Source of the DNA: Pseudomonadota bacterium | GTDB taxonomy: Bacteria > Bdellovibrionota > Bdellovibrionia > Bdellovibrionales > JACTMU01 | Reading direction: 5' to 3' | DNA: 64,000 bases | NCBI GenBank assembly: GCA_014584465.1 | Contig: JACTMU010000014.1 | Location: 1-64,000, forward strand | Shown here: piece by piece, positions 4,564 to 10,852 of the stretch | How positions within the stretch are numbered: the first letter of the stretch is position 1 | Layout of the letters: every line of letters starts with the position of its first letter | Notes under the pieces: model-generated | Databases searched by the model: none | What the model was told of the DNA's origin: nothing | Seen by the model: only the letters and a program-made list of their open reading frames with translations | Program-made: the position numbers and the translations under genes

Positions 4564-5802
4564 CTATGGATTGTGAGCAGGCAGCCCAAACTCGTAGGTC
4601 ATGGATCTAAAATCGATGGTCCATTTATAGTTCTTAAAGAAGGCGTGACCAATGAGACCGGCAATTCCGATGCCTCCTAAATGACCGAATGTAATTTCCT
4701 TTTGATGTTTTACGGGGGGACCTTTTTGTGTGAGGGGACCAAGGTTCAGACTTCCTACAATATCTACAACTTTGTGTCGATCGAGTTCATCTTTGTTATA
4801 GCCCCAACTCTCCAGGTTCTGTGTTGAGGTAAGAAAAGCTGCTTGGCGACCATCTTCATGAAAGGTGACAAGGCCTGTGTCCACAAAAAAGAGTAAATTC
4901 GAAACAATGCCAATTGAACCCTTTGCAAACATAAAGTGGTCACCCCAAATATAAAAGGGAACTTTGATCGCAGGATGGTGGTGTTGTCGCCGATTGAGAT
5001 GTTGCAATCTCTGGCCAAATGGCGTCAATACCAACATACTGTTCGGATAGTCTATGGTTGTTAAAAAGCGCTGTAGCAGATTTGTTCCAAAAATCACTCG
5101 ATCTTTCATGTCGGTGTTGTCGATACAGTCCGACACCATGGTGGGAAGGTTGCGGGCCCTGAGATGACCCAAAAGGATTTCTGTCTGAGTGAACCAAACA
5201 TCTGCCTCTCTATTATTGCAATGCCCTTTGCCATAACTAAAAAGAGTCAATCCCATATCCTTTGCCAAGTGGGTCGACATTACAAGAAACGGTCCGCCCG
5301 TGTCCAAATGGGCAGTCAATTTTCTACCAGAGATCTCAATGTCAAAAGCCGGAAGAAAGTCATTAAGATCATCGCTCTTCTTGAAATTAATCCTGCTGGT
5401 TGAGCTCAGCTCGAATTTCGGCGAGTTCATTGACATTTGGCGCAAGCTCTCAAGGAGACCACTTTGATCTAAATTCTTTTCAAGGGCAAACTGGTAGGCC
5501 TTTTGAAATTGATTGAGGTGCAGTAAAGCATTCACGACGGGGACAATTGTTTCGTTATATCTGAAGTAAGATGGCGTGATATGGGCCTGATGTTTGATAG
5601 TGGCTTCAAATTTACCTTGAACAAAGGATGCAAGGGTGAGCAAATGCCGGGCCTCATTTGGTTTTGCTTTGAGCATAGAACGCGCAACGGTTTCGGTCGC
5701 TTTCATTTGGCCCCTAGACCAAAGGTCCCACGGATTTGGTAATGCGGCGGCAAAAAGTTGAGAGGTAAGGAAAGAATAGAACAGAAAAGTCGCAATCTTC
5801 AT
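4564..5802 (-). CDS. Exported two-lobed retropepsin-like aspartic protease
   Basis: 412 residues from the ATG at 5802, chosen because it is preceded by GGAG and directly starts a signal peptide (KIATFLFYSFLTSQLFA). An alpha-helical, TPR-like segment covers about 25-125. Two aspartic-protease lobes follow. Lobe 1 has HLDTGGPFLVMS (Asp near residue 167) and the hydrophobic-Gly motif RVIFGTNLLQRF. Lobe 2 has FFVDTGLVTFHEDG (Asp near 308) and AGLIGHAFFKNYKWTIDF. Bacterial retropepsin-like proteins usually carry one lobe and dimerise; here both catalytic DTG motifs are in one chain, as in pepsin. It is presumably periplasmic. The substrate is unknown, and protease activity is inferred from the two intact motifs. 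Confidence 0.75.
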   Translation of the reverse strand: MKIATFLFYSFLTSQLFAAALPNPWDLWSRGQMKATETVARSMLKAKPNEARHLLTLASFVQGKFEATIKHQAHITPSYFRYNETIVPVVNALLHLNQFQKAYQFALEKNLDQSGLLESLRQMSMNSPKFELSSTSRINFKKSDDLNDFLPAFDIEISGRKLTAHLDTGGPFLVMSTHLAKDMGLTLFSYGKGHCNNREADVWFTQTEILLGHLRARNLPTMVSDCIDNTDMKDRVIFGTNLLQRFLTTIDYPNSMLVLTPFGQRLQHLNRRQHHHPAIKVPFYIWGDHFMFAKGSIGIVSNLLFFVDTGLVTFHEDGRQAAFLTSTQNLESWGYNKDELDRHKVVDIVGSLNLGPLTQKGPPVKHQKEITFGHLGGIGIAGLIGHAFFKNYKWTIDFRSMTYEFGLPAHNP

Positions 5803-5889
5803 AAGAACTCCGTTTGAAACAATGACAGCCTTCAATAAATAGCATGGTGCACATAAAGCATTCAAACAAGATGTTTCTTATCTCCATTT

Positions 5890-6027
5890 CTAATTATAGA
5901 AATCTTCCCACTGTCCGAGAAGTTGTTCTTGAACATCCTGGCCCAACTTAGTGAGGCGGTAGTATTTGCGGGGAGGATCTTCCTTGGACTCAATCAAAAA
6001 CGCTCCTTTTGAAATAGGAGCGGACAT
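5890..6027 (-). pseudogene. PadR-type regulator remnant (C-terminal wing)
   Basis: A 45-codon frame contains ESKEDPPRKYYRLTKLGQ, the beta-wing signature of PadR-family winged-helix repressors, followed by a typical short terminal helix. The N-terminal recognition helices are missing. A good RBS (GGAGG) plus ATG at 6060-6058 in another frame begins MNKEVVAT, a plausible original start, so an internal deletion is likely. The rest of 6061-6307 shows no gene that I can support. Confidence 0.5.
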
Positions 6028-6307
6028 CTGTTTTCGTTGCAACCACCTCTTTATTCATGAAGGCCTCCTCGATTTCGTTGAACGGTGCAACACACAGTGC
6101 CCGGTAAAGAAAGGTGCTAGTTGTAACTTAATACGGCATAAAATAATCAAATAAAAACGAATTATTTCAATATCTTAGAGAACAACACAAAGCAGCACAT
6201 CGAATTGAGTCGACTCGGCGGAAGCTGGCTCAAAACTTCACGTTCCCTAAGAGTCCTCGGATTTAGAAAAGAGTGTTCTCGAGTTGGTCTCATGTTAGAT
6301 TCGACCA

Positions 6308-9526: not shown

Positions 9527-10852
9527 CTAAAGTGAATGCCCCTGTTCAGTGCCGATGATATTGACCTTAACACTCGCGGTAACGCCTAAATTCACGATGG
9601 ATGTAAAGCCCGAAATGGAAAGAGAGAAGAGAGATTCAATTTCACTTACATACCATTTTTTCAAAGTGACTTGACGAGATTTCTTAGCAAAAAACGAACT
9701 GATATCAAGAGCCTTTTCCATTCCCTTGCGGAATTTTTCAAAAGGGATCTTGTAAATCATTGTATTTTCACCGTCCCATCGATGTTCAATGTTGTTGCTT
9801 CGAGCATACTCAACATGATGGGATTTCGGGGCGCTTTCAATCAGATAGAAAGAGTCTAGAGACCTTGGAGGTTGAATGTGATCAAGCCTTGCGGGGCGCT
9901 TGGAAAACGATATTCCAGCGGAAACTCCACCTGAGGCAAAGACCATTCCAATAAGTCCACTTCCGGTCAAGCCAACAGAAAATCCTACAGATTTAAGGGT
10001 GAACTTCTGCGCAAGAAGTTGAACTTCATCTGTTCCATCCAAGAAAAATCCAAGGTCGTTTGTGAATTTCTGGAGCGCAAGTTGCTTTTGGTATCGATCC
10101 TCATTTTCATGAGGCAAATCGTTATTTCGATTGTCAATGCTCCATGTGAGCAAAGAGACAATGCCGCCGCCAACGGTCACATTGGTGTGAACATTTCCAG
10201 CTGCACTGAACCTTAGAAACAGATAGAAGTGGCGAGGTCTCCACTGTTGACTTCCAACAGCTCTAAACCCCTGGAAAAGTCTATGATGAGCCAGGACTTG
10301 CTCCTTATAGTTGGAGCGAAAGAGGGGAACATTCTCAATTTTTCCAGTTGCAACAAGAGCCTGCATAACAGGTTCGATCTGAGTTAAGACTTCATCCTCA
10401 TTGAAATTGGTTGAAAGCGTGATTTGACCCTCTCTACTTTCTGACAATTTCTTGTCATCGACCAAAGAGGGGGCAGACTTTTGCCGCCAATCGATTTCAG
10501 TGGAGAACGATCCCCCACCCAACAAGAGACCGATGAAACCCCGGGCGCTAACTGCAAACTTTGTCACGAGACGATCAAAGTGCCACTTGTTCGCATTGGG
10601 CGCAGACAATTCACTGTAGTTATCAAGAGAGGTGCCAATGGAACGAAAGAGGTTGCTGACAGGAGTTTTGGGTTGTCGTCCAAGGCGCAGGCCTTCTGTT
10701 TCTTGAGAGACGGATTGATCTTCGGGCAGTTGATACCAATCAACGGGAAGAGTCTCATCATCAAAATCTGCCAGGACATTGTATCGATCAAAGATTCCCA
10801 ATGCGAGAATCCCCATGAGAACTGAGAGGAGGAGCCACTTTTTTCGATTCAT
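9527..10852 (-). CDS. Exported protein with glycine-rich beta segments
   Basis: 441 residues. An N-terminal hydrophobic helix (WLLLSVLMGILALGIF) is followed by FDRYNVLADF; it could be a signal peptide or an anchor. Several Gly-rich strands (FIGLLLGGGSFSTE, TVGGGIVSLL, VGLTGSGLIGMVFASGG) suggest membrane-active or lipid-facing beta hairpins. The start is preceded by GGAG and overlaps the stop of the upstream lipoprotein gene by four bases. No known family; the three adjacent genes probably act together at the envelope. Confidence 0.65.
   Translation of the reverse strand: MNRKKWLLLSVLMGILALGIFDRYNVLADFDDETLPVDWYQLPEDQSVSQETEGLRLGRQPKTPVSNLFRSIGTSLDNYSELSAPNANKWHFDRLVTKFAVSARGFIGLLLGGGSFSTEIDWRQKSAPSLVDDKKLSESREGQITLSTNFNEDEVLTQIEPVMQALVATGKIENVPLFRSNYKEQVLAHHRLFQGFRAVGSQQWRPRHFYLFLRFSAAGNVHTNVTVGGGIVSLLTWSIDNRNNDLPHENEDRYQKQLALQKFTNDLGFFLDGTDEVQLLAQKFTLKSVGFSVGLTGSGLIGMVFASGGVSAGISFSKRPARLDHIQPPRSLDSFYLIESAPKSHHVEYARSNNIEHRWDGENTMIYKIPFEKFRKGMEKALDISSFFAKKSRQVTLKKWYVSEIESLFSLSISGFTSIVNLGVTASVKVNIIGTEQGHSL

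Follow-up and report, generated by a model that had tools for sequence, protein, structure and literature searches.

Does a single exported bacterial chain contain both halves of an aspartic protease active site, as pepsin does, and would such a chain be a working enzyme? The question is raised by one gene in the window, the whole stretch of 64,000 nucleotides that was analysed. An earlier note had placed this gene correctly at 4564–5802, leaving its strand, which is minus, unstated. A GGAG sequence, read at 5808–5811, lies five bases 5′ of the ATG. The protein begins with a signal peptide recognised by eye, in agreement with the export proposed by the note, and continues with a TPR-like domain and two lobes of ~115–125 residues each (Table 1). 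This layout matches that of 9IY9 and of the type annotated as 'aspartyl protease family protein'. Both lobes contain the elements that define clan AA, a D[TS]G motif and a downstream hydrophobic-hydrophobic-Gly psi-loop motif, and the pairs to which the note had drawn attention are present: HLDTGG (Asp167) with VIFG at residues 236–239, and FVDTGL (Asp308) with LIG at residues 383–385.

Table 1. Features of the two-lobed protein and its gene, with positions in the window.
Feature	Positions	Strand	Basis or remarks
Complete gene, 412 aa	4564–5802	−	ATG at 5802, stop codon 4564–4566
Sec signal peptide, residues 1–20, MKIATFLFYSFLTSQLFAAA, probable cleavage after AAA	5743–5802	−	By eye
TPR-like all-helical domain, residues 22–126	5425–5739	−	Model helices, profile match to TPR structures in PDB, 3kd7 fold match
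First clan-AA lobe, residues 150–262; Pfam Asp_protease_2 at 155–241	5017–5355	−	Pfam, models
Asp167-Thr-Gly (HLDTGG), predicted first catalytic motif	5296–5304	−	Asp/Gly invariant, 8/8
VIFG, hydrophobic-hydrophobic-Gly (psi-loop) motif of lobe 1, residues 236–239	5086–5097	−	Alignment, sequence
Second clan-AA lobe, residues 280–406	4585–4965	−	Profile match to lobe 1; low-confidence models
Asp308-Thr-Gly (FVDTGL), predicted second catalytic motif, then Leu311	4873–4881	−	Alignment, sequence
LIG, hydrophobic-hydrophobic-Gly motif of lobe 2, residues 383–385	4648–4656	−	Alignment, sequence

Relatives with the same architecture occur in other phyla as well. A single-sequence search found a close relative (53% identity) in one other genome, giving two of 290 phylum genomes with the window's own included; the gene of this relative is truncated by a contig end. 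In the genome collection, a Phycisphaerae protein and a protein from a gammaproteobacterial MAG have the same full layout. Two records of K. oxytoca plasmids encode an identical protein, WP_049593955.1, and a contig labelled as a C. difficile plasmid encodes WP_003421229.1, both annotated as 'aspartyl protease family protein'. A gammaproteobacterial search yielded two more relatives (3/321 genomes, including the query's own), and a search of the planctomycete phylum returned only the query's own genome (1/343). The order of a TPR-like domain followed by two lobes is common to the relatives from Phycisphaerae, Gammaproteobacteria, the K. oxytoca plasmids, and C. difficile. By eye, a signal peptide or a lipobox can be recognised in most relatives whose start is complete, the lipobox replacing a plain signal peptide in L008, L013, and the C. 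difficile relative; no signal peptide is visible in L014 from the chosen start. The C. difficile 'plasmid', NZ_CP033217.1, is possibly part of a chromosome instead, being linear and carrying genes for a sugar-binding regulator and a 2-oxoacid-type dehydrogenase.

An origin in phages or mobile elements was rejected, given that the phage records held no match and no relative was confirmed in viral contigs; defence-system and PHROGs profiles gave no useful match. Function could not be read from the neighbours either: they encode a BNR-repeat protein, a GNAT fragment, a TPR protein, a DJ-1/PfpI protein, a methyltransferase, and a CBS protein, which suggest no shared pathway, and the neighbours of other subfamily members differ from those in the window. 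Two further minus-strand features of the window were recorded. A short frame at 5890–6042, ending in YYRLTKLGQDVQEQLLGQWEDFY, has no intact start upstream and is possibly a decayed gene; its end looks like the C-terminus of a PadR-type regulator. At 9530–10852, between two small same-strand ORFs, lies the gene for a 441-aa protein that matches Pfam Pepco (27.7 bits, cut-off 27.0).

We next consider whether both DTG motifs are real. Two D[TS]G motifs occurred in 264 of 20,000 shuffles of the window protein; requiring a pair of hydrophobic residues ahead of each motif reduced the count to 9 of 20,000. Conservation weighs more heavily as evidence. In an alignment of the window protein with seven relatives from four phyla, down to 21% identity, Asp167, Gly169, Asp308, and Gly310 are invariant in all eight sequences, and D[TS]G is kept in both lobes of seven. 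Profiles of lobe 1 and lobe 2 built from these eight sequences match each other in hhalign (probability 96.4, E 1.4e-9, 112 columns), and neither matches the profile of the N-terminal domain. Within the window protein alone, the lobes are not significantly similar: 397 of 2000 shuffles attain their Smith-Waterman score. At the position following the second D[TS]G, all eight aligned subfamily members have Leu or Met, which none of 15 other two-lobed chains of the phylum (eight and seven from two sets) has after its second DxG. The conserved Leu/Met at this position marks the subfamily that combines a TPR-like domain with two lobes. The same alignment places extra residues between the DTG and the next strand in lobe 2 of the window protein.

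Family profiles recognised the protein in part. Pfam Asp_protease_2 (PF13650) matches lobe 1 with 31.9 bits against a cut-off of 24.3. Residues 268–412 searched alone matched none of the Pfam families, and there is no second Asp_protease_2 match in lobe 2. No profile of the pepsin family (MEROPS A1) was found in the window protein, PF13650 and PF13975 being the only matches at E up to 10. The layout of family A1, two lobes in one chain with one Asp each, is present; with two lobes in one chain, the protein departs from the single-lobe layout of MEROPS A2 and of RimB, RloA, and APRc. Its likeness to pepsin is therefore one of fold only and not of sequence membership in family A1. Pfam TPR has no match in the window protein, and its matches in two relatives (L007 and L008) lie below the cut-off. 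The profile of the N-terminal domain matches TPR structures in the PDB.

Structure prediction was consistent with the proposed layout. Both AlphaFold models were built from only 4 sequences. The full model has a mean pLDDT of 59 and a pTM of 0.58; averaged over blocks of 10 residues, most of the N-terminal domain and of lobe 1 lies at 60–91, with one block at 48, and much of lobe 2 is at about 23–50 (block means of 23–47 for residues 301–380). The protease-only model (mean pLDDT 61) has the same weak stretch in lobe 2. By far the best Foldseek match of the full model is 9IY9 (E 1.6e-10), on which it superimposes with a VIA Z of 20.4 and an rmsd of 4.5 over 323 residues, covering model residues 19–406 at 12% identity. 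Against human pepsin (1pso), both lobes of the full model align (Z 10.4, 196 residues, rmsd 3.7), and the protease-only model gives Z 10.7 over 193 residues (rmsd 4.7), spanning residues 1–271 of 274. With the trimmed model, Foldseek ranked single lobes of Rickettsia APRc and Ddi1 at the top, and 9IY9 came at rank 15 with 178 columns. The helical part matches 3kd7 with a VIA Z of 12.4, a value at which the arrangement of helical repeats can by itself produce a match; this result, together with the helices of the model and the TPR profile matches, bears out the preceding helical domain that had been proposed.

In the superposition on pepsin that the earlier note had suggested as a check, 1pso aligned over both lobes, and the refuting outcome named there, two Asp residues that do not meet in one active site, was not seen. 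Confidence in the lobe 2 part of the models is low, however, and the Asp167–Asp308 geometry, in which both residues would come together in one cleft, is for that reason an inference. The fusion of two retropepsin-type lobes, also claimed beforehand, is upheld by the match between the lobe profiles, the invariance of both Asp residues, and the pepsin fold matches. Overall, the reading of the window protein as a bilobed protease is well supported.

The main rival explanation grants the bilobed fold and denies the peptidase: the protein would be an envelope binding or scaffolding protein that uses its cleft for peptide binding. Several features would fit such a role, namely the bulky Leu/Met directly after the DTG of lobe 2, the extra residues before the next strand in the window protein, the DNG that replaces DTG in lobe 1 of the C. 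difficile relative, and the existence of inactive family A1 members, as noted in the available part of Rawlings and Bateman (PMC2761423). However, invariance of both Asp and both Gly residues across the alignment, with D[TS]G in both lobes of seven of its eight members, would be unusual if catalysis had been lost, and we consider a non-enzymatic role improbable. Far less likely still is a dimer in which lobe 1 pairs with lobe 1 of another chain in the manner of retropepsins, leaving lobe 2 as a degenerate structural copy. Lobe 1 does give the best matches to Pfam and to structures of single lobes (Rickettsia APRc 5c9f and Ddi1), but Asp308 and Gly310 are kept in lobe 2 of every aligned sequence, and both the models and the 9IY9 match span the two lobes of one chain. 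Finally, that the second DTG arose by chance in a C-terminal part of some other fold, as the missing Pfam match and low pLDDT of lobe 2 might suggest, is scarcely credible given the lobe-to-lobe profile match, the order of motif and psi-loop kept over eight sequences, and the scarcity of paired hydrophobic-preceded motifs among the shuffles.

The window protein is most likely an exported monomeric aspartic endopeptidase in which two retropepsin-type lobes, fused in tandem, follow a TPR-like domain. The data show the gene, its motifs and their conservation, that the lobes are homologous, the order of the domains, and the relatives; we infer its catalysis, its location, the role of the TPR-like domain, and its pH preference. 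The Sec pathway would export the protein, and signal peptidase would remove approximately residues 1–20. The lobes may then fold against each other, with a single water molecule shared between Asp167 and Asp308 for the cleavage of a peptide held in the cleft between the lobes, and the TPR-like domain could recruit or orient a protein substrate or partner in the cell envelope. Leu311 occupies the place of the Ser/Thr found after the second DTG in pepsin. The available part of Rawlings and Bateman gives this residue as Thr218 in pepsin and links Ala at this position in renin and HIV retropepsin to activity at neutral pH (PMC2761423). Since Leu311 would not form the hydrogen bond of pepsin Thr218, activity near neutral pH is predicted. 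The literature searched contained no catalytic test of the TPR and two-lobe subfamily.

The earlier note had also held that bacterial retropepsin-like proteins are generally single-lobed, a generalisation not supported in this phylum, where roughly half of the Asp_protease_2 ORFs surveyed have two lobes. A search with Pfam Asp_protease_2 found matches in 49 of 290 phylum genomes. Among 30 loci taken from this search, to which the count is confined (further matches without a locus lie outside it), 14 ORFs are clearly two-lobed, 12 are single-lobed, and four are unclear; seven of these two-lobed ORFs were among the sequences from which the search profile was built, and the other seven were not. 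Two separate Pfam matches above the cut-off were seen in each of four ORFs (genomes G269, G024, G226, and G065). The premise that two-lobed bacterial chains are rare was rejected on the strength of the 14 ORFs and the four double matches. A profile of the protease domain found matches in 10 of the 290 genomes, including the window's own. Besides the window protein and that of a same-order genome (G004), all eight matches (L018–L025) show a second lobe by motif and by profile, with DLG as the motif in two, and with weak or partial profile evidence for the second lobe of L021 and the first lobes of L024 and L025. Like the window protein, these eight have two lobes in one chain and mostly a signal peptide or lipobox by eye; unlike it, they have no TPR-like domain before lobe 1 and never Leu/Met after the second DxG.

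Several two-lobed architectures were noted in the phylum (L018–L025, L026–L050): plain forms that carry DTGIGVN in their first lobe and in some cases DLG in the second, a form with a PDZ-like end (L022, by eye), and chains of ~270–330 aa. A single-lobed DTG protein of 165 aa, from the genome of the window itself (L004:1315–1809), falls just below the Pfam gag-asp_proteas cut-off. When 52 lobes were placed in a tree, all eight lobe-2 rows of the window subfamily formed one supported clade (98/87), and its lobe-1 rows sat in a weak, open fork with four PDZ-type lobe-2 rows, a topology compatible with a single fusion as well as with several.

The literature, as far as the portions available to us show, frames bacterial clan-AA enzymes as single-lobed dimers or as a few intracellular pepsins. 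By our counts, retropepsin-like chains with two lobes are common, in the window's phylum at any rate. This finding is relevant to the long-standing question of an origin of pepsin by fusion of two retropepsin-like lobes, for which it supplies candidates to test; the practical value of the window gene alone is modest. A broader proposal, which we rate as rather unlikely, is that exported tandem-retropepsin proteases constitute a broad, overlooked bacterial group. A duplication-and-fusion step has been proposed for pepsin, and the members of this group would be its living counterparts, with lobes still alike in sequence and possibly more than one origin, and the window subfamily would be distinguished by a TPR-like recruiter, DTG-Leu, a neutral-pH chemistry of its own, and envelope substrates.

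Among known systems, the nearest is 9IY9, the crystal structure of a 'putative endopeptidase' or 'exported protein' from Bacteroides fragilis (PDB, released 2025-08-06). It has ~420 residues, with a helical N-terminal part and then two clan-AA lobes, and gives a profile match of E 2.9e-10. The A5 profile aligns to lobe 1 of the 9IY9 sequence, and HFDTG is seen in a second, weak stretch. Asn follows the second DTG in 9IY9, in contrast to Leu in the window protein. No paper on 9IY9 or on bacterial aspartic proteases with a TPR-like domain and two lobes was found in a search that covered few subscription journals. The K. oxytoca and C. difficile proteins share with the window protein a signal peptide or lipobox, the TPR-like domain, two lobes, and D[TS]G-Leu in lobe 2; they differ in being 25–26% identical to it, in a longer lobe 2 with a Gly-rich stretch, and, for C. 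difficile, in the DNG of lobe 1.

Bacterial pepsins of family A1 (shewasins) likewise have two lobes with one Asp each; according to the part of Rawlings and Bateman 2009 available, they have no signal peptide and are described as intracellular (PMC2761423), whereas in the window protein a signal peptide and a TPR-like domain accompany lobes of ~115–125 residues, and Pfam A1 does not match. The accessible text of Llorens et al. 2009 describes prokaryotic single-domain ORFs of ~120 residues and a few pepsins (PMC2642776). In the excerpts available, RloA (PMC12239564) and RimB (PMC11957791) are single-lobed homodimers, and a DTG and a single psi-loop motif are given for Amuc_1434 (PMC6982040). 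RimB, RloA, and Rickettsia APRc have a DTG lobe of the same fold, and APRc structures match lobe 1; in contrast to the RimB and RloA dimers, the window protein has both lobes in one chain. Exported tandem-retropepsin chains with a TPR-like domain are not described in those portions of the bacterial clan-AA literature that were compared. The kind is nevertheless already in databases, as 9IY9 and the annotated relatives, and to it the window protein adds an uncharacterised, putative exported tandem-retropepsin protease.
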